Positions 1 through 7,823 of a stretch of DNA of 23,714 bases are shown piece by piece. Below the pieces are notes generated by a model. That model was not told the origin of the DNA. It saw nothing but the letters and a program-made list of their open reading frames with translations, and made no database searches. This stretch comes from a virus, in IMG/VR virus record IMGVR_UViG_3300027754_000445, positions 1 to 23,714 of that record. The stretch is one strand, 5' to 3'. Every line of letters starts with the position of its first letter. Within the stretch, counting starts at the first letter, position 1. Position numbers and translations under genes: made by a program.

Positions 1-666
1 CCGACGCCGGCCATGGTGTTTGGCACCGTCGTGCATAGCCTTGTCCTGGAGCCCGAGCGGCCTGCGTTCGCGGTCAAATATCTGAACTGGGCCAGCAAAG
101 AGGGCAAGGCCGAGCGCGAGCGCCTCGAGGCAACCGGGCTGCCGATCCTGTCGGAAGCTGACGGCGACCGCGCAACCGCGATTCGCGACGCGCTTTGGTC
201 CAATGCAGTGATCGCAGAGATGCTTGAGGCCGCTGCAAAAGAGCAGGTGATGCTTTGGGATCAGCACGGCGTGAAGTGCAAAGCCAAGGCCGATGCGATC
301 GGAGACGGCATCGTCATCGACCTCAAGACCACGATCGATGCCGGCATTAAGGATTTCGGGCGCTCGGTGGCGACGTTCTCATACCATCTCCAGGCTGCTC
401 ACTACCTTGACGGCTATAGAGCGACGCGCGGCGGCGCGGCTGATTTTATCTTCATCGCCGTCGAGTCTGCCGCACCGCATGCGTTCGCGCTTTACCGCCT
501 CGATCACGAAACGCTGGCAGCCGGTGCGCGCGAAATGAAACGCGCTGCGGCCGTGTATCGCGACTGCATGCAATCAGGCAACTGGCCCGGATACGAGGCG
601 GGCATTGCAACCCTGGCACTGCCCAGATGGGCCATGCCGGCCGACGAGTGGAGCGACGCGGCGTAG
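1..666 (+). CDS. RecE-like PD-(D/E)XK exonuclease (DUF3799/YqaJ type), 5'-truncated
   Basis: This is the C-terminal part of a phage recombination exonuclease that would resect double-stranded DNA to leave single strands for annealing. The frame is open from base 1 (PTPAMVFGTVVHSLVLEPE), so the ATG at 13 is internal and the true start lies upstream of the window. The GT-x-x-H signature of RecE/DUF3799 nucleases is at the very start. The active-site core follows: Asp at 292-294 in KADAI, then IVIDLKTT with Asp at 319-321 and Lys at 325-327. A tyrosine/glutamine helix (YHLQAAHYLDGY) comes after it. The next gene encodes a single-stranded DNA-binding protein, the usual partner in such modules. 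The family call is confident. Whether it acts like RecE with an annealase outside the window is inference. Confidence 0.88.
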   Translation, partial: PTPAMVFGTVVHSLVLEPERPAFAVKYLNWASKEGKAERERLEATGLPILSEADGDRATAIRDALWSNAVIAEMLEAAAKEQVMLWDQHGVKCKAKADAIGDGIVIDLKTTIDAGIKDFGRSVATFSYHLQAAHYLDGYRATRGGAADFIFIAVESAAPHAFALYRLDHETLAAGAREMKRAAAVYRDCMQSGNWPGYEAGIATLALPRWAMPADEWSDAA

Positions 667-722
667 CGGTTGCCACGCGCTCCAATAATCAAGAACCGCG
701 AAACGTAAAAAGGAAACCGACC

Positions 723-1289
723 ATGATAATAAACGATGTCAGGCTTGATTGGGTGCACCTCGAAGAGCCGCGGGCGGCGGCAGAGGGCGCGGAGCCGAAA
801 TACTCCATCACGATGATTGTGCCGAAGCAGCACAGGCAACTGCCCGAAATCAAGGCCGCGATGCAGGCGGCGATTGCCGCCAAGTGGAACGGCAAGCCGC
901 CGAAGGGCCTCAGGTCGCCACTGCGCGACGGCGATGCCGTTGACGACACTGGCGAGCGGGTCAAGAGCGCGGAATACACCGACTGCTATTTTATCAGTGC
1001 GGCGAACAAGAAGCCCGTCGAAGTTCTCGCGGGCAAGGATCGCAGCCGCGCCACCAGCGAGCATATGCGGAGCGGAAACTACGCCAGCGTGAAGGTGGGG
1101 TTTTACGGCTACGACACGGCCGGCAACCGCGGAGTCGGCTGCGGTCTGAACGGCGTCTGGATCACACGCCGAGGCGAGCCGTTGGGCGCCGCAAGCGAAC
1201 CCTGGGCTGAGACGACAGAGGCCGAGGACTTTAGCGCGGTTGTGGCAAAAGCCCAGGCCGGTGGGCAGCAGGCTGACGACGTGTTCTGA
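723..1289 (+). CDS. Enc34-type single-stranded DNA-binding protein (DUF2815)
   Basis: A protein of 188 residues predicted to coat single-stranded DNA during phage replication and recombination. The order of conserved segments fits the Enc34/DUF2815 OB-fold family: an N-terminal strand with W and EP, then AKYS-like PKYSITMIVPK, a helix with IKAAMQAAI, LRSPLRDGD, the YFISAANKKP strand, YASVKVGFYGYD, and GVGCGLNGV. It ends in an acidic, flexible tail finishing DDVF, as is common in phage SSBs, where such tails contact partner proteins. I chose the ATG at 723 because AAAAGGAAA at 707-715 sits about 7 bases upstream. An in-frame start at 627 would lie inside the exonuclease gene and add an unconserved, arginine-rich leader. 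A strong hairpin terminator follows the stop. Confidence 0.88.
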   Translation: MIINDVRLDWVHLEEPRAAAEGAEPKYSITMIVPKQHRQLPEIKAAMQAAIAAKWNGKPPKGLRSPLRDGDAVDDTGERVKSAEYTDCYFISAANKKPVEVLAGKDRSRATSEHMRSGNYASVKVGFYGYDTAGNRGVGCGLNGVWITRRGEPLGAASEPWAETTEAEDFSAVVAKAQAGGQQADDVF

Positions 1290-1304
1290 GCGCGCTGAGA
1301 ATAT

Positions 1305-1338
1305 CCCGGCGGCCGGGAAACGGTCGCCGGGGTTCTTT
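1305..1338 (+). terminator. Intrinsic terminator after the ssb gene
   Basis: CCCGGCGGCCG (1305-1315) pairs with CGGTCGCCGGG (1321-1331): an 11-bp stem with one G-U pair and the loop GGAAA. It is followed by GTTCTTT, a short U-rich tail. It starts 15 bases after the ssb stop, so it likely ends or attenuates the exonuclease-ssb transcript. Confidence 0.7.
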
Positions 1339-1357
1339 GCACCAATCCCAGATTGAT

Positions 1358-1954
1358 ATGCCGCTGCGGAAAAACTCAGGCGTTCTTACCAAGAAAGCTA
1401 GCATGGAAATGCTTCGCTGCCGTATCGATGCGAACGTAATCGGCGCGCCCTGGTTGGTGGACGATGTGGATTTCTTCAATTTGATTTGCGGCACCAGTTT
1501 TCATGGCGTCAAGCGGATGAACAATCCGAGCTATCCGAGCGACCCGAGGCATATTCACACCTGCGATTTCGGCGGCGAATGGCGCGAATTTAGCTGGAAC
1601 AAAGCCATCAACGGCGAAGGCAAGCGGCCGTTGCATAAGGTGTTGCGGGATGCGGTGGCGGACGATCTTAGAACCTATCGCAGCGACAACGCGGCGGCCG
1701 GGTGTCAGCAATGCGCCGGCGCGGACGACCTCACGACGGATCACGTAGACCCAACGTTTTTCGACATTGCGGAAGAATTCACAGCATTGGAGCGCGACCT
1801 ACCGCTGTCGCGCGGTGCATCGGGCAGGGGCGCAATCCTGGCAGACCTTGATCAGGAGGCACGATGGATAGCGTTCCACGCCAGCCGCGCGATTTATCAA
1901 GTGCTGTGCCGGTCATGCAATTCGGCAAAGGGCCGCAAGGTGGCCGCGCAATGA
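1358..1954 (+). CDS. HNH-type endonuclease with CxxC...DH...CxxCN zinc-nuclease core
   Basis: A predicted DNA endonuclease of about 198 residues. The C-terminal half carries a treble-clef HNH pattern: C116-x-x-C119, then DH with H129, then C184-x-x-C187-N188 followed by AKGRK. The middle segment (GEWREFSWNKAING, then VLRDAVADDLRTY) resembles the region preceding the HNH core in DUF3223/DCL-type phage nucleases; this part is recognition from memory and less certain. A TTG at 1337 would lengthen it, but that codon lies in the U-tract of the terminator. ATG 1358 lacks a clear ribosome site, and ATG 1403 (AAGAAAG upstream) is a credible alternative that keeps every nuclease residue. The stop overlaps the primase start (ATGA). 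Its place just behind a terminator suits a mobile homing-type nuclease or moron, but no split host gene is visible. Confidence 0.68.
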   Translation: MPLRKNSGVLTKKASMEMLRCRIDANVIGAPWLVDDVDFFNLICGTSFHGVKRMNNPSYPSDPRHIHTCDFGGEWREFSWNKAINGEGKRPLHKVLRDAVADDLRTYRSDNAAAGCQQCAGADDLTTDHVDPTFFDIAEEFTALERDLPLSRGASGRGAILADLDQEARWIAFHASRAIYQVLCRSCNSAKGRKVAAQ

Positions 1955-4272
1955 GCCACACGGTCACAATCATCGACAGCATCAAGCCGGCCGTGATCCG
2001 CAAGAAGTACACGATGACCGATGACGGGATGAAAAAGACCGTGATCGCCAGCATCACGGAAGGCGTCGGCGTCTCGCGCGAGATCACTACGGCGCGCGAA
2101 TTTGCCGACTTGCTTGCCGAGGTCACGGAATCGGAAAGCCTCGTGATCTGTGCCGGCGAATGGATGGGGGCGGACGATAAGCCGTTCCGCATCATTCCCG
2201 AAGAAGAGCTGGCCCGCATTCTCAACAGCCGCGTCGGTGAAGTTGCCGGCGGCGTGATCCATAAGGACGGCAAGCGCATTTCCGCACGCCTCAAGCGCGG
2301 CATTACGCCGTCAGTGTACGCGCTGTTTGACGCCGACAACCCGCCAGGTATGCCGGCGGCTTGGGCTGCAATGGATATCGGCGCCCGGCTGCGGATGTGG
2401 GAAAGCATTTTGCCGGGCATTTCAAGCTGCGAGCGCATCGAACTGCGCGGATCCTCGGCGCGCGTGCGCCGCGAGGGTGAGCCCGGCCAACAGGCCACGC
2501 ACGCATGGATCAAGGTCAGCGACGCCAGCAAGATCGGCTTGATGAAAGCCCACGTGGGCGTCGAGATGGTCAACCGCGGGCTTTCGTTTGCCTTTGAGAA
2601 GCTCAGCCGTAGCCCGAAGACCAAAGGCAAGGTGATCGGGATCGAGCATCGCAGCCTCTTTGACCTGGCGGTGTTCGATACCGGGCGGCTTGTGTTCTGC
2701 GCGCAACCAGATGTCAGCGATGCGCCAGGCTATGTGTGCGACGACGCCGCCATAACGGTTGCCAATGAAGGCGGCGGGATCCTCGATCTATCGTTCCTGA
2801 CAATCCCCAAGCCGAGCGCCCTGCGTGAGTACTGCCGCAACACCGGCATCAAGCTGGAGATCAAAGCGACACCAAACGGCGGCGGCCTGTCGGTCGTATC
2901 GTGTGGCCAACTAAGCGCGACGACTGAAATCACGCGGCGCGGCAGCACGCAGACGCTGGCGGCATGGGTTGACGGGTTGCAGCCGGGTGACAAGTTGAGG
3001 TGCGAGGCGCCGTTTCGCGAGAGCTATTCGGAGGCCGCCTTTATCCGGCTTTCCGACAGCGGACAGCCTTTTATCTACGATGTGGGCAACGGGACGACCT
3101 ACCGAATTGCGGAGGATTGGGGAGACACTGCGGAGGGCGTGGAGGACTTCGAAGAGCCAAATACGGGCAGCACATCGGAGGGTGAACCGAAGCCAAAGGC
3201 TAAGCCCGCCGTCCTCATGCCAGCGGCCGAGTTCCTGGCGCGCTATGTGCCCGCCGACTACATCGTGGACGGCCTCCTGCTGCGCGGCGCCATGTATTCC
3301 CTCACCGCGCCGACAGGCACCGGAAAGACGGCCGTGGCGCTGCTGCTTATGCAGTGCGTGGCCGCAGGCGCGGCATTCTCCGAGCGCGCTGTAGACCCCG
3401 GAGCGGTGCTGTATTGCGCCGGTGAAAACCCCGACGACCTGCGCCACCGCATGATAGCGGCAGCGGACAACGCATTTGGCGGCATCGCGCTAGACCGAAT
3501 GCACGTCTACGAGCCGTCTGGGCCGCAGTCGCTGCTGCAACGGGTAGCGGAGATGAAAGCCTATGCCGAGCGCATCGGCGGCCTGCGGCTGGTCATCGTG
3601 GACACCGCGGCGGCCTTTTTTGAGGGCGACAACGAGAACGACAACACGCAGGCCGGCAACTATGCCCGCGAGCTCCGGGCGGCCCTGTGCAACCTGTCGG
3701 GGCGGCCTGCCGTTATCGTCCTGGCGCATCCCATCAAGCGGCCGGCCAATGCAGCCGACTGCCTCCCGCGCGGTGGTGGCGCCTTCATAGCCGAGGTGGA
3801 CGGCAACCTGACGCTCTGGGGCCAGGACGGCGAGATCGCTCTGCATTGGGCCGGCAAGTTCCGGGGCGCCGAGTTTGCCCCGATCCCGCTTGCGCTCGAG
3901 AGCGTCGAAACATCCAGCGTGAAGGATGCCAAGGGGCGGCCGGTCAAGACGGTGATCGCGCGGGAAGGGCGGCCTGGAGCGGCCGAGGACAAGGAGAGCC
4001 GCCGGCGCCGCGAGATAGAGCAGATCATGATGGCGCTCAGCCGCATCGCGCGAGCGCGCGGCCCTATGCAGTTGGGGCAGGCGGCCGGGCTTTTGACGGA
4101 CGGCGCCAAGGCCGAGCAGCGCAACGAATATCAGGCGGTCGTGGGACATGTCGCCAAGCTCAAGATCGACGGCCTGCTGAGCGACGCCGGCGACGTGATC
4201 GAGATCACCGCGAAGGGCAGGAAATGGGTGGCGGGACTTATTAATTCAGGAGGTAAAAGTGACAAGTTTTAA
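1951..4272 (+). CDS. Primase-helicase: AEP-like primase domain fused to RepA-like hexameric helicase
   Basis: A protein of 773 residues predicted to prime and unwind DNA at the phage origin. Residues about 110-260 look like an archaeo-eukaryotic primase core: ALFDADN with D127/D129 as the metal-binding DxD, THAWIKV with H184, and a late Asp (FDLAVFD, D238 or D243) before GRLVF. Residues about 420-680 form a RecA-fold ATPase of the AAA_25/RepA type: Walker A APTGTGKT (K459, T460), Walker B LRLVIVDT (D551) and the VIVLAHPIKRP segment (H593). The last 90 residues look like a winged helix. I chose ATG 1951 because AAGGTGG at 1937-1943 precedes it and it overlaps the previous stop; ATG 1864 would overlap the nuclease gene by about 90 bases. 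The helicase is certain as a family. The primase call rests on motif spacing only. Confidence 0.85.
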   Translation: MSHTVTIIDSIKPAVIRKKYTMTDDGMKKTVIASITEGVGVSREITTAREFADLLAEVTESESLVICAGEWMGADDKPFRIIPEEELARILNSRVGEVAGGVIHKDGKRISARLKRGITPSVYALFDADNPPGMPAAWAAMDIGARLRMWESILPGISSCERIELRGSSARVRREGEPGQQATHAWIKVSDASKIGLMKAHVGVEMVNRGLSFAFEKLSRSPKTKGKVIGIEHRSLFDLAVFDTGRLVFCAQPDVSDAPGYVCDDAAITVANEGGGILDLSFLTIPKPSALREYCRNTGIKLEIKATPNGGGLSVVSCGQLSATTEITRRGSTQTLAAWVDGLQPGDKLRCEAPFRESYSEAAFIRLSDSGQPFIYDVGNGTTYRIAEDWGDTAEGVEDFEEPNTGSTSEGEPKPKAKPAVLMPAAEFLARYVPADYIVDGLLLRGAMYSLTAPTGTGKTAVALLLMQCVAAGAAFSERAVDPGAVLYCAGENPDDLRHRMIAAADNAFGGIALDRMHVYEPSGPQSLLQRVAEMKAYAERIGGLRLVIVDTAAAFFEGDNENDNTQAGNYARELRAALCNLSGRPAVIVLAHPIKRPANAADCLPRGGGAFIAEVDGNLTLWGQDGEIALHWAGKFRGAEFAPIPLALESVETSSVKDAKGRPVKTVIAREGRPGAAEDKESRRRREIEQIMMALSRIARARGPMQLGQAAGLLTDGAKAEQRNEYQAVVGHVAKLKIDGLLSDAGDVIEITAKGRKWVAGLINSGGKSDKF
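4248..4254 (+). promoter_or_regulatory. Near-perfect Shine-Dalgarno AGGAGGT
   Basis: AGGAGGT lies inside the last codons of the primase-helicase gene, four bases before a GTG at 4259. It is the closest match to the anti-SD consensus that I noticed in the window and supports translation of the repeat-spanning frame that follows. Confidence 0.6.
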
Positions 4273-4582
4273 GAGTTTCGCATTAGAAAAGCTCGGGCAA
4301 GAATGCCGGGCAAAGGTACCTGTTTTTACCCCCCCCTTTGCCCGCCTCTTTGCCCGGGGCAAGAAAACAGGCAAAGCCGGGCAAGGGCCGAAAAGGCTTT
4401 GCCCGCAGCGCGAATTAATTAATGGGAACAATGGCTTAGCTGTTTTGGTTTTGTGCCCGGGGTTTGCCCGGTTTCCCATATCCAGCCGTCCGGGCAAGCG
4501 CCGGGTATTACTTAATACCCGGCCTTTGCCCGGCTGGATGGGCGCGTGTGTTTTAATTATTCCTGCCGCAGGCCCGGCATGA
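4259..4582 (+). CDS. Possible 107-residue ORF spanning the repeat region
   Basis: This reading frame has no recognisable domain, but its borders look like those of a real operon member. A strong Shine-Dalgarno (AGGAGGT) precedes its GTG start, it overlaps the primase stop by 14 bases, and its TGA overlaps the next ATG as ATGA (4579-4582), the same junction type used elsewhere in this operon. The peptide is rich in Gly, Pro, Arg and Lys. It contains FAR repeats where the heptamer TTTGCCCG happens to fall in frame. Other heptamers fall in other frames and on the other strand, so repetition was not selected at the protein level. Translation may exist mainly to couple the downstream gene, or may be coincidental. 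I cannot assign a function. Confidence 0.35.
   Translation: MTSFKSFALEKLGQECRAKVPVFTPPFARLFARGKKTGKAGQGPKRLCPQRELINGNNGLAVLVLCPGFARFPISSRPGKRRVLLNTRPLPGWMGACVLIIPAAGPA
4294..4533. repeat. Cluster of nine TTGCCCG/CGGGCAA heptamers (candidate iteron origin)
   Basis: Nine exact copies of the heptamer occur in 240 bases. Four read CGGGCAA (starting 4294, 4307, 4378, 4491) and five read TTGCCCG (4338, 4350, 4399, 4464, 4526); near-copies lie at 4355-4362 and 4454-4460. Several extend to TTTGCCCGG. Pairs form palindromes such as TTGCCC-G-GGGCAA (4350-4362) and the 9-bp arms GGCAAAGCC (4370-4378) and GGCTTTGCC (4395-4403). AT-rich stretches lie at 4411-4423 and 4551-4561. Dense short repeats with AT-rich DNA, directly after a RepA-like helicase-primase gene, are what an iteron-type replication origin looks like. 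The origin role is inference. This repeat array accounts for the stretch between the primase stop (4272) and the next well-supported start (4579). Confidence 0.6.
4475..4542. repeat. Large interrupted inverted repeat beside the next gene
   Basis: The core CCGGGTATT (4501-4509) and AATACCCGG (4514-4522) form a perfect 9-bp stem with a 4-base loop. Moving outward, CCGGGCAA (4490-4497) pairs with TTGCCCGG (4526-4533), ATCCAG (4480-4485) with CTGGAT (4534-4539), and CCCAT (4475-4479) overlaps an ATGGG (4538-4542), giving about 25 paired bases per arm with small bulges. T-rich TTTTAATTATT follows at 4551. It could be a replication-origin dyad, a protein-binding site, or a terminator-like RNA hairpin. 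Confidence 0.7.
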
Positions 4583-5163
4583 CCCGGCTTCTGGCGCACG
4601 GCCGCACCAAGCCGGCCACCGCCTCCAGCATCACCGAGGCCGAGAGCAGGGCATGGGCCGCCGCCAGCGCCGCCCTCGATCGGGTGGCGGTAGACCTCGA
4701 GCGGACCTGGGGCGTCAACCGCCTACCCGAGCTCGTACCGGCCGACCTGGCCGCTCGCTTCGCGACCGCCCAGGAGCAGTGCGACATGGAGATCGCCGCC
4801 GGCGACATCGAGGCCGCCGCCCAGAAGGCCGCCGCCTTGGCGCGCGGCTGGAAAGCCCTCGACGCCGCCGCCCGCGCGGCAGGCCACCAGCCCAACGACC
4901 TGGGCGCCGTCTGGACCGCATCCGTAGAAGGCCAGGCATTCGCCGTCTGCCTGCATACCGCCGATGTCGGGGCTACCGCCGACCGATATCCCGGCCACAC
5001 CGCTGTGGCGCTTCAGGAGCTGCTGCGGGTGCTGATGGCCCGCGAGGCCGCCATCTACCGCAAAGCCAAGACGCTTTGGCCTGGCGCCGAGATCACCGCC
5101 GCACGTCCCGCATCAACCAAACCGCCCGCCGACTGGAAAGCCGGCGACGCGCTGCCGTTCTGA
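4579..5163 (+). CDS. Hypothetical phage protein
   Basis: A 194-residue protein that I cannot assign. It is alanine-rich and mostly helical in appearance, with no signal peptide or membrane segment. Visible segments are an N-terminal basic stretch (MTRLLAHGRTKP), a long helical middle with many Ala and Glu residues, and a tail ending DWKAGDALPF, an acidic/aromatic end like those used by single-stranded-DNA-associated proteins for partner contacts. The ATG at 4579 was chosen because it forms an ATGA overlap with the upstream frame and because a GTG at 4546 would run through the T-rich end of the inverted repeat. It sits between the primase-helicase and a resolvase-like nuclease, so a role in replication or recombination is plausible but unproven. 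Confidence 0.75.
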   Translation: MTRLLAHGRTKPATASSITEAESRAWAAASAALDRVAVDLERTWGVNRLPELVPADLAARFATAQEQCDMEIAAGDIEAAAQKAAALARGWKALDAAARAAGHQPNDLGAVWTASVEGQAFAVCLHTADVGATADRYPGHTAVALQELLRVLMAREAAIYRKAKTLWPGAEITAARPASTKPPADWKAGDALPF

Positions 5164-5175
5164 GGAGAGGCCACG

Positions 5176-5508
5176 ATGGGCAAAGCCAGCCGAGACAAGG
5201 GCAAACGCGGCGAGCGCGAGGTGGCGCAGCTCCTGCGCGACCACGGCATTCCTGCCCGCCGCGGTGTGCAGTATGCCGGCGGCAACGACAGCCCCGACGT
5301 GATTGGCCTCGACGGCGTGCATATCGAGGTCAAGCGCGCCGAGACGCTTGCGCTCTACCCGGCGCTTGAGCAGGCGCTGACCGACGCCAAGCCGGGCGAC
5401 ATCGCCACGGTCTGGCACCGCCGATCGGGCCGGCGCTGGGTCGTGGTGCTGCACGCCGACGATTTCCTGGCGGTGCTGCGGGCCTCACGAGCAGGGACCG
5501 CAGCATGA
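5176..5508 (+). CDS. Holliday-junction-resolvase-like PD-(D/E)XK nuclease (Hjc-like fold)
   Basis: A 110-residue nuclease predicted to cut branched DNA or recombination intermediates during replication or before packaging. The restriction-endonuclease-like active site is complete: E13 in KRGEREVAQLL, D41 in NDSPDVIG, then the E51-V-K53 strand (HIEVKRAE). The N-terminal KASRDKGKRGE stretch matches archaeal Hjc and phage resolvase-like proteins, and the size is right for the family. A clear ribosome site, GAGGAGAGG, lies just upstream. The stop overlaps the next start as ATGA. Exact substrate specificity cannot be read from sequence; a nicking or general branched-DNA nuclease is the main alternative. 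Confidence 0.8.
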   Translation: MGKASRDKGKRGEREVAQLLRDHGIPARRGVQYAGGNDSPDVIGLDGVHIEVKRAETLALYPALEQALTDAKPGDIATVWHRRSGRRWVVVLHADDFLAVLRASRAGTAA

Positions 5509-5762
5509 GCGCCACCACCCTCTTCGACCAGGCCGCATACGTTCAGCGCGACCGGCAGGCGGCCTACGGCGACGCTAGCAAGGCAATGGCCGCCATCGCG
5601 GCCCGCTGGTCCCTCACGCTGGGCCACCCCGTCACGGCGGCCGAGGTCGTGCTGTGCATGATGGACCTCAAGCTGACGCGCCTGACGCGCGATCCAGGGC
5701 ACCAGGACTCGATCCTCGATCTGGTGGGCTACGCCGCCATCCTGCACGAGGTGACGAAATGA
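5505..5762 (+). CDS. DUF6378 family phage protein
   Basis: An 85-residue protein that fits the DUF6378 pattern: an early R-x-x-x-YG (RQAAYGDA), then AIAARWSLTLGHPVTAAEV, MMDLKLTRL, and the closing HQDSILDLVGYAAIL. The D-S-x-x-D-x-x-GYA ending is the most distinctive part. It is mostly helical and soluble. Proteins of this family are common in phage replication regions, but their biochemical role is not established as far as I know. The helical arrangement with an acidic DS-x-x-D motif recalls all-alpha nucleotide pyrophosphatase folds, which is only a suggestion. It overlaps its neighbours by ATGA at both ends, so it is part of the coupled operon. Confidence 0.72.
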   Translation: MSATTLFDQAAYVQRDRQAAYGDASKAMAAIAARWSLTLGHPVTAAEVVLCMMDLKLTRLTRDPGHQDSILDLVGYAAILHEVTK

Positions 5763-5971
5763 ACGGGCGCGCTTGGACAGCCGACGATGACGCCAAGCTC
5801 CGCATGCTGGCGCGCGGTGGTTACACTGACGGACAAATTGGTAAGGCCATGAAAAGAACCAGAACCTGCGTGCAGAAAAAACGCAACCTTCTGAACGTCA
5901 GCCCAGGCGAGCCGCGGCAGTATCGTGCTATGATGATGCGGATCGCCAAGCGCAGGAAAGCGAGGGCGTGA
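5759..5971 (+). CDS. Small Myb/GcrA-like helix-turn-helix protein
   Basis: A 70-residue basic protein likely to bind DNA. The N-terminal 45 residues read as one three-helix SANT/Myb or GcrA-type unit: W-T-x-D-D-D-A-K-L at the start, then MLARGGYTDGQIGKAM, then RTRTCVQKKR as the recognition helix. The C-terminus is strongly basic (RIAKRRKARA). It begins with an ATGA overlap. Since it lies immediately before the terminase genes, it could regulate late genes or help recognise packaging sites. This is inference from position; the fold call is from the residue pattern only. Confidence 0.72.
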   Translation: MNGRAWTADDDAKLRMLARGGYTDGQIGKAMKRTRTCVQKKRNLLNVSPGEPRQYRAMMMRIAKRRKARA

Positions 5972-6009: not shown

Positions 6010-6313
6010 TCTCAGCCACAAACAGCGAGGCAAGGGCAAACCCTTCCAGAAGGGCGTCAGCGGCAATCCTGGGGGCCGCCCAGGTGTTTCTGGACCGCTC
6101 AAGGAGATGGCACGCGCCCATACGGCCGAGGCTCTGACGACGCTCGTAGCCGCCCTGGCGGCGAAGGAGAGCCGCACGCGCGTTGCCGCCGCCGAGGCGC
6201 TGCTGGACCGCGGCTGGGGTCGCCCGTCCCAGCACCTCGAACTCGACGCGGGCGACGAGCTGGTCAAGCGCATGAACGATGCCGCGAAAAAGCTGGCGGG
6301 CGATGCTGGCTGA
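6002..6313 (+). CDS. DUF5681 protein, candidate terminase small subunit
   Basis: A 103-residue protein likely to recognise phage DNA for packaging. The N-terminus carries the DUF5681 hallmark, basic and glycine-rich: KPFQKGVSGNPGGRPGV. A helical region follows (AEALTTLVAALAAKES, then RVAAAEALLDRGWGRP). DUF5681 proteins are regularly found directly before large terminases, as here, and are often annotated as small subunits on that basis. A GCAGAGGG ribosome site lies about 8 bases before the ATG. The gene overlaps the large-terminase start. Direct DNA binding is not demonstrated by sequence; the call relies on family plus position. Confidence 0.75.
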   Translation: MADLSHKQRGKGKPFQKGVSGNPGGRPGVSGPLKEMARAHTAEALTTLVAALAAKESRTRVAAAEALLDRGWGRPSQHLELDAGDELVKRMNDAAKKLAGDAG

Positions 6314-7823
6314 ACGGCGTGATCCCGAGCAGGAACTGATCGAGATTCTCGCCAGCTTCGCGCATGACCCTCTGCGCTTCGTGCGCTATGCGTTCCCGTG
6401 GGGCGAGGAGGGCACTGAACTGGCGGGCGAAGCCGGGCCTCGCCCGTGGCAGATCGAGACGCTGAAGCTGATCGGCGATCGGCTGTCGGCCGCCGACATC
6501 GACGGCGCCCTGCGCATTGCCACGGCTTCGGGCCACGGCATCGGTAAATCCGCCCTCGTGTCGTGGATTATCCTGTGGGGCCTATCCACTGCGCCGCTGA
6601 CCAAAGTCGTCATCACAGCGAATACCGGCGACCAGCTCCGCACAAAGACGTGGCCGGAAGTCTCCAAGTGGTTCAACCTGCTGATCTGCAAGCACTGGTT
6701 CAAATTCGAGGCGACCAGCATATCCCGCCGCAATTCCAGCGGCTCAAAGGAATGGCGATGCGATGCCGCCACATGGTCGGAGAACAACACGGCGGCCTTC
6801 GCCGGCCTGCACAATAAGGGCAGGCGCCTGATCCTGTTGTTCGATGAGGCCTCCCAGATCGCGGACAAGGTTTGGGAGGTGGCCGAGGGCGCCATGACTG
6901 ACGAAGACACCGAGATCCTGTGGTGCGCCTTCGGCAATCCGACCGAGAACACGGGCCGGTTCCGCGAGTGCTTTGCCGGCGGCCGTTTCTCCCATCGCTG
7001 GAGCCCACGCCAGATCGACTCTCGCAAGGTGCGCGGCACGAACAAGGCCGAGATCGACAAGTGGATCGCCGACTATGGCGAGGACAGCGATTTCGTTCGC
7101 GTCCGCGTCAAAGGCGAGTTCCCGCGAGGAGGATCTATGCAGTTTATCGACAACGAGACCGTGGAGCAGGCCGCCAGCCGCGAGGCCGTGAGCCATATCT
7201 ACCAGCGTCTGGTGATGGGCGTGGACGTGGCTCGCTTCGGCGACGACCAGGCGACGTTCTATTTCCGCCGAGGGCTCGACGCCAAGACCATCGATCCACT
7301 CAAGTTCAGGGGCCTCGACCTGGTCTCGCTTTCAGGCAAAGTGGCTGAACAGGCCATGTTCCACAACGCGGCGGCGGTCTTCATCGACGAGGGCGGCATG
7401 GGCGCTGGCGTGGTCGATATGGTTCGCAAGATGCTGCCCAGCACCCTGGTGCTGGGCATCAACAACGGCGGCAAGGCCGATCGATATACGATGGGCGACG
7501 GCTTCCCCGCCACCGCCAACAAAGGCGCGGAGATGTGGGCCAGCATGAGGGAATGGCTGAAGACCGGCGCGATCCCCGCTGACAGCGAGCTGCGCGCCGA
7601 GCTGATCGGCCGGCAGTACGGCTTCAACCTGCACAATCAAATCCTTCTCGAAAAGAAGGAGGACATGAAAAGGCGCGGGCTTTCCTCGCCCGACAATGCT
7701 GACGGCCTGGCCCTCACATTCGCCTATCCGGTGGCCGACCTGCCGCAGGGCTCGGTATTCAGCGCGCCCGGCGTGTTGCAGAGCGCCACCCAACACGACT
7801 ACGACCCGCTCGCGGATGCCTAA
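6303..7823 (+). CDS. terL: Terminase large subunit
   Basis: A 506-residue packaging motor that pumps DNA into the prohead and cuts it. The N-terminal ATPase shows Walker A GHGIGKS (residues 77-83, K82), a coupling segment KVVITANTGDQLRTKTW, and Walker B LILLFDEAS (D181, catalytic E182). The C-terminal RNase-H-like nuclease shows VMGVDVARFGDD (D308), FIDEGGMGAG, and the late NADGLALTFAYP acidic motif. Length is normal for the family. Two starts are possible: ATG 6279 (35-base overlap with the small subunit) and ATG 6303 (11-base overlap). I prefer 6303 for the shorter overlap, though neither has a clear ribosome site. What follows is odd: no portal gene, but a tail gene after 67 bases. Confidence 0.95.
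   Translation: MLAERRDPEQELIEILASFAHDPLRFVRYAFPWGEEGTELAGEAGPRPWQIETLKLIGDRLSAADIDGALRIATASGHGIGKSALVSWIILWGLSTAPLTKVVITANTGDQLRTKTWPEVSKWFNLLICKHWFKFEATSISRRNSSGSKEWRCDAATWSENNTAAFAGLHNKGRRLILLFDEASQIADKVWEVAEGAMTDEDTEILWCAFGNPTENTGRFRECFAGGRFSHRWSPRQIDSRKVRGTNKAEIDKWIADYGEDSDFVRVRVKGEFPRGGSMQFIDNETVEQAASREAVSHIYQRLVMGVDVARFGDDQATFYFRRGLDAKTIDPLKFRGLDLVSLSGKVAEQAMFHNAAAVFIDEGGMGAGVVDMVRKMLPSTLVLGINNGGKADRYTMGDGFPATANKGAEMWASMREWLKTGAIPADSELRAELIGRQYGFNLHNQILLEKKEDMKRRGLSSPDNADGLALTFAYPVADLPQGSVFSAPGVLQSATQHDYDPLADA

Follow-up and report, generated by a model that had tools for sequence, protein, structure and literature searches.

In phage-inducible chromosomal islands (PICIs) and Staphylococcus aureus pathogenicity islands (SaPIs), short repeats, or iterons, lie directly 3' of the helicase gene in two sets around an AT-rich region, an arrangement proven to be functional (PMC6092414, PMC7581432), and the PICI rep and ori together drive replication of a plasmid (PMC6092414). 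In the staphylococcal cassette chromosome SCCmec, the C-terminal DNA-binding domain of the helicase Cch2 binds repeats just past its own gene, in a putative origin; the binding was demonstrated biochemically (PMC7581432). Here we describe a comparable arrangement in a viral sequence, the 23,714 nucleotides of IMG/VR record IMGVR_UViG_3300027754_000445 (hereafter, the window), in which a cluster of TTGCCCG heptamers follows the gene of a helicase related to RSF1010 RepA. We propose, with a probability of roughly 85%, that this cluster is the replication origin of the tailed phage or the part of it that loads the initiator, and that the upstream helicase is its own initiator, acting through a C-terminal winged helix. 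The origins of environmental phages are mostly unknown; if an origin does lie in the 250 bp past the stop codon of each RepA-type helicase, sequence alone would locate it throughout a large family that spans phages and prophages.

The heptamer cluster and its place in the helicase family

A reading of the window made from the sequence alone had pointed to nine exact copies of TTGCCCG/CGGGCAA, and all nine are present at 4294–4532, five on the plus strand and four on the minus strand, with three further copies that differ by one base (Table 1). The first begins 22 bp 3' of the stop codon of the helicase gene. The whole window contains 19 exact copies, compared with 6.3 ± 2.4 in dinucleotide shuffles, none of which reached 19 (0/100); the ten copies outside the cluster are scattered over the other 23.5 kb, and no second TTGCCCG cluster occurs within the window. 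From the copy rate outside the cluster, its 239 bp would be expected to hold 0.10 copies (Poisson P(≥9) = 3e-15). A heptamer count over the full genome, which the sequence-only reading had put forward as a check, bears it out as far as the window goes, in that the density outside the cluster is about 90-fold lower. The AT-rich stretches described beside the repeats are likewise real: AT makes up 38% of the window but 60% of positions 4406–4455, and 72% of the richest 25 bp.

The same placement recurs among relatives of the helicase. The family is sparse, with matches in 4 of 385 alphaproteobacterial genomes, and an initial scan of genome contigs found no relatives; viral contigs and genomes yielded 121 nonredundant loci that extend far enough downstream, and 99 relatives form the core. 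The 400 bp past the helicase stop are strictly the most 7-mer-repetitive stretch in 64 of the 99 core relatives, where 2.0 are expected, and the top 7-mer reaches at least five copies and exceeds all 100 shuffles in 64 of 99. Five core relatives (L007, L085, L087, L096, L106) have no cluster detected up to 400 bp from the stop, although their helicase and winged helix are the same.

A stricter cluster filter retained 69 loci, from the core and from more distant relatives. Among them, the median distance from the stop codon to the first iteron is 10 bp, the last iteron lies at 216 bp, and the orientations are nearly balanced (393/357). In 58 of the 69, an AT-rich 25-mer lies between iterons, with two or more of them to either side; these 25-mers average 71% AT, against 39% for the gene. 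The heptamers themselves vary widely from locus to locus, and most fit the frame 5'-NNNN-A-C-(A/G). Since fitting a frame could by itself produce the ACR pattern, we also counted the raw, unaligned top 7-mers, and 57 of 69 contain ACR on either strand, with 21 expected.

Clusters also accompany RepA-type helicases in other settings. An Escherichia coli element (L153) carries six copies of AAGTGAG at 3448–3660, directly past the stop of the helicase gene; a metagenomic phage with a RepA-type helicase carries eight copies of TGGGACA, and Roseobacter phage CRP-406 seven copies of GCTGGAA that overlap the end of its helicase gene. Neither Mycobacterium phage Athena nor Gordonia phage LittleMunchkin, both of which we checked, has a cluster 3' of its helicase. 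The gene of the E. coli element is annotated ‘helicase RepA family protein’, and the element also has PerC, Icd-like and capsid genes.

Iterons and the C-terminal winged helix

The protein upstream of the cluster had been read as a RepA-like helicase-primase. The RepA-like part of that description stands, while the primase label, for the N-terminal part of the protein, was confirmed by no search. Residues 453–625 of the 802-amino-acid protein match Pfam AAA_25 (E=1.3e-23), and residues 456–586 match the structure of the RSF1010 RepA helicase (1g8y, E=4e-4), which identifies a homologous hexameric helicase core. The domain order is an N-terminal domain, a RecA-fold helicase core and a C-terminal winged helix. 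The N-terminal ~430 residues matched nothing in the libraries searched. For the C-terminal domain, an AlphaFold2 model built with a 67-sequence alignment (mean pLDDT, the predicted local confidence score, 86) predicts the order helix-helix-helix-strand-strand-helix; a single-sequence fold (pLDDT 49) was discarded. The nearest folds that Foldseek found in the PDB are MarR-type winged helices, with probability ~1 and none at E ≤ 0.001, and nearly all family members end in a winged helix.

A naturally occurring exchange indicates that this domain and the iterons belong together. With the nearest relative, L002 (IMG/VR contig 3300011334_000479), blastn aligns positions 1–3152 of the window at 92% identity and 4566–5765 at 90%; between these stretches only 3559–3815, which covers helicase motifs, aligns, at 70%. 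The replacement starts within the helicase gene, where the N-terminal domain ends, and runs to 33 bp past the last iteron. The N-terminal part of the gene (1864–3152, ~92% DNA identity) is thus common to both and the remainder swapped, which makes the helicase gene a hybrid whose recombination border falls between domains. L002 has not kept TTGCCCG; at the same position it has 12 copies of CGGACCA/TGGTCCG. According to the sequence-only reading, an origin here would be refuted if close relatives kept the same replication genes but lost the repeats; the loss in L002 is of another kind because the DNA-binding half of its initiator has been replaced too. A further relative, L003, has the heptamer CGTAACA/TGTTACG, and another, from Shinella granuli DSM 18401, has CGGTACAG. 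The helicase and its iterons act like a single cassette that can be exchanged and that has a specificity of its own.

Across 56 nonredundant loci, iteron similarity tracks the C-terminal domain and not the helicase core, as judged from aligned sequences: its partial Mantel correlation is 0.273 with C-terminal identity given the core (0/1000 permutations) and -0.03 with the core given the C-terminus (p = 0.75). Of the alignment columns, 301, halfway along the recognition helix, is associated most strongly with iteron base 4, with a mutual information of 1.19 bits (z = 7.6); the next C-terminal columns reach z = 6.5, 5.3 and 5.0, and the best core column z = 3.1. Column 301 is Gln in all 11 loci with T at base 4, but in just 3 of the 42 with another base (p = 5e-9); G is paired with Asp/Glu (p = 2e-4), C with Arg (p = 6e-4) and A with His/Asn (p = 7e-4). 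Among individual loci, L058 (CGATACG) has Gln and L141 (TGGAACG) has Phe. Read on the opposite strand, the pairs Gln-A, Arg-G and Asp/Glu-C are the usual side-chain/base contacts. On the core tree, base T requires seven changes, and of four independent pairs on well-supported branches 3.9 agree on average and none is opposed. A core column, 243, that scored against iteron base 7 (z = 8.3) was set aside as nearly invariant.

A prediction rule was fixed before further loci were fetched, with a preset threshold of p<0.01. Twenty-two new, dissimilar loci were obtained, 14 of them with clusters; all five T loci have Gln, and five of seven Gln loci have T. The rule assigned 8 of 11 correctly, where permutation gives 4.8 (p = 0.045); its exceptions indicate that more than one residue matters. 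The sequence-only reading had looked to the N-terminal domain of the helicase for DNA binding; the C-terminal winged helix is the likelier candidate.

Table 1. Positions, within the window, of the helicase gene, its domains and the repeat features that follow it.
Feature	Position	Strand	Basis or details
RepA-like helicase, putative initiator gene, 802 aa	1864..4272	+	Pfam AAA_25, 1g8y, PHROG primase/helicase families
Block replaced as a whole in comparison with L002	3153..4565	+	From the end of the N-terminal domain through helicase core and winged helix to the iterons
Helicase core AAA_25 (aa 453-625)	3220..3738	+	Pfam
C-terminal winged helix, putative iteron reader	3973..4248	+	AlphaFold2 model, Foldseek
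Third (recognition) helix of the winged helix	4111..4167	+	Model helix 71-89; covarying columns of relatives fall here
Exact heptamers, minus strand	4294, 4307, 4378, 4491	-	
Exact heptamers, plus strand	4338, 4350, 4399, 4464, 4526	+	
Iteron set 1	4294..4405		Exact 4294-, 4307-, 4338+, 4350+, 4378-, 4399+; one-mismatch 4356-, 4368-
AT-rich spacer between iteron sets, candidate melting site	4406..4452		AT content and flanking iterons
Iteron set 2	4453..4532		Exact 4464+, 4491-, 4526+; one-mismatch 4453+
Near-perfect inverted repeat	4482..4541		29-nt arms, 83% complementary, 2-nt gap; set 2 iterons and GCCGGGTATTA/TAATACCCGGC

The origin reading and its alternatives

The repeats, their family-wide position past the helicase stop, the layout of two sets around an AT-rich spacer, the joint exchange of winged helix and iterons, and the covariation of helix residues with iteron bases are the observations that lead us to read the cluster as an origin. 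In the mechanism we envisage, the C-terminal winged helix would bind the 7-bp iterons on either side of the AT-rich spacer and the helicase would then assemble at them; the spacer would melt, and the hexameric ring would be loaded for replication. The comparison of relatives supports the proposal of an iteron-type origin beside its initiator; physical binding, melting, helicase loading and origin activity itself we infer. Separate specificities of the cassettes would prevent cross-initiation among related phages. A wider reading, that the DNA specificity of RepA-type phage helicases follows a readable code, seems to us evenly poised between right and wrong: a common winged helix would read NNNN-A-C-R, with the recognition helix setting the variable bases, and the cassette would move between phages under diversifying selection that blocks cross-firing among coinfecting phages or satellites.

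Several results weigh against the origin reading. About one third of the core relatives have no detectable cluster. Cumulative GC skew, which had been suggested as a check, peaks weakly at ~4.4 kb, whereas an origin is usually expected at its minimum. The tree-aware comparison has four pairs, a number that precludes significance, and the held-out association of Gln with T, although in the same direction, misses its preset threshold of 0.01 (Fisher p = 0.021). Finally, the specificity code is not readable with confidence for the window, because its recognition helix (EYQAVVGHVAKL) and its iteron frame (CCGGGCA or GGGCAAA) both diverge from the family.

The main rival to the origin reading is that the winged helix of the helicase does bind the cluster, which would serve as a copy-control, incompatibility or autoregulatory element while replication starts elsewhere. 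Phage P4 offers an analogue, in which the repeats past the alpha gene form crr, a required accessory region, and ori lies 4–5 kb away; moreover, the 23.7-kb record is of unstated completeness, and a second iteron field could lie outside it. Within the record, however, TTGCCCG forms only the one cluster, and the arrangement of two sets with an AT-rich region resembles functional PICI origins, in which rep and the 3' ori suffice for replication (PMC6092414). We regard an accessory role as unlikely.

Less probable still is that the heptamers are operators for a separate DNA-binding protein that controls transcription of the downstream operon. The sequence-only reading had named, as its main alternative, the helix-turn-helix (HTH) protein encoded at 5759–5971, whose gene sits 1.2 kb downstream of the cluster and resembles a regulator PHROG (E=1.3e-5), and a dense group of sites in both orientations would suit a regulator. 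That candidate is disfavored. Clusters are present throughout the family and tied to the helicase stop, and their sequence tracks the helicase C-terminal domain; a scan for the sigma-70 consensus only found no promoter-like site in 3900–5200. The HTH gene has no homolog besides the window in the first 151 loci fetched and no match in the whole L002 contig (a weak negative, made without a positive control), and as the binder it was rejected on the latter ground. Positions 5505–5762 encode a DUF6378 protein that falls, in PHROGs, with families labeled ‘phosphofructokinase’, a label that looks doubtful.

It is highly improbable that the inverted repeats mark a transcription terminator or a pac/cos packaging site. 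The 29-nt arms at 4482–4541 are strong, and the terminase large-subunit gene starts 1.75 kb downstream of the cluster, but the terminator scan was no better than chance (1 site versus 1.5 in shuffles), for which the terminator reading was rejected. The tracking of the helicase C-terminus by the iterons also argues against both roles, as does the E. coli element, where the same arrangement follows a RepA-type helicase among different neighbor genes. The 60-bp near-palindrome, centered on TATTAC/TTAATA within iteron set 2, could possibly form an extruded or terminator-like hairpin.

Least credible of all is that the repeats are coding sequence of the 107-amino-acid open reading frame at 4259–4582 (+), which opens with GTG, has a strong Shine-Dalgarno-like sequence, reaches across the helicase stop and covers the entire iteron field; it was rejected since searches of Pfam and PHROG gave no match, the first 151 loci fetched hold no homolog, and the repeats run in both orientations and several frames and are replaced by other heptamers at that position in relatives.

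Comparison with known replication systems

The window shares with PICIs and SaPIs iterons placed directly 3' of the helicase gene (22 bp in the window, a family median of 10 bp) and two iteron sets around an AT-rich region, a feature common to the window and 58 of 69 relatives. Iteron recognition by the C-terminus, as in those islands, is suggested here by covariation and the joint swap. The helicases differ: SaPI Rep is of the DUF927/D5 type, whereas that of the window has the AAA_25 RecA fold of RSF1010 RepA. A PICI, moreover, is a satellite that lacks a terminase large subunit and virion genes of its own, whereas the window has a terminase large-subunit gene (6279–7823), 51% identical to a phage TerL; with this gene and a different helicase family the element is not a PICI. 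In the PICI/SaPI literature searched, we found no covariation of recognition helix and iterons by lineage. SCCmec Cch2 differs in its D5/Primase_Cterm helicase and in its repeats, which are 5 nt long and present in three copies only.

The repeats 3' of the P4 alpha gene (crr/ori type I, GGTGAACA) are also short and in both orientations, and the P4 heptamer GTGAACA fits the NNNN-A-C-R frame; the main P4 ori, by contrast, is a separate site. Homology of the winged helix to the C-terminal origin-binding domain of P4 alpha was not found (hhalign with the 67-sequence profile, probability 0.1, E=0.68). One relative of the window helicase, L013, uses GGTGAACA past its stop at 2723, the same core as the P4 type I repeats.

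With RSF1010, the window shares a helicase of the same family (1g8y). The RSF1010 iterons are bound by a separate protein, RepC, whereas the window helicase carries its own winged helix; Pfam and PHROG scans of the neighboring proteins, in which no search was aimed at RepC, showed none. Classical iteron plasmids resemble the window in having repeated initiator sites beside an AT-rich region. Their iterons are long direct repeats read by non-helicase Reps, whereas the sites of the window are 7 bp long and in both orientations, and no Pfam family of the Rep_3/RepA-type initiators with two winged helices was present among the proteins scanned.

Site and reader seem to change jointly; if they do, the family would offer decodable natural initiator-origin pairs, of use for studies of replication specificity, phage incompatibility and satellite parasitism and for orthogonal replicons in alphaproteobacteria. 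Literature searches, largely without subscription journals, found no prior description of this arrangement for RepA-type phage helicases. The layout itself is known from PICIs and SaPIs and in part from P4; what is new is its occurrence in a range of phages whose helicases are of the RSF1010-RepA type, where the specificity is interchangeable.
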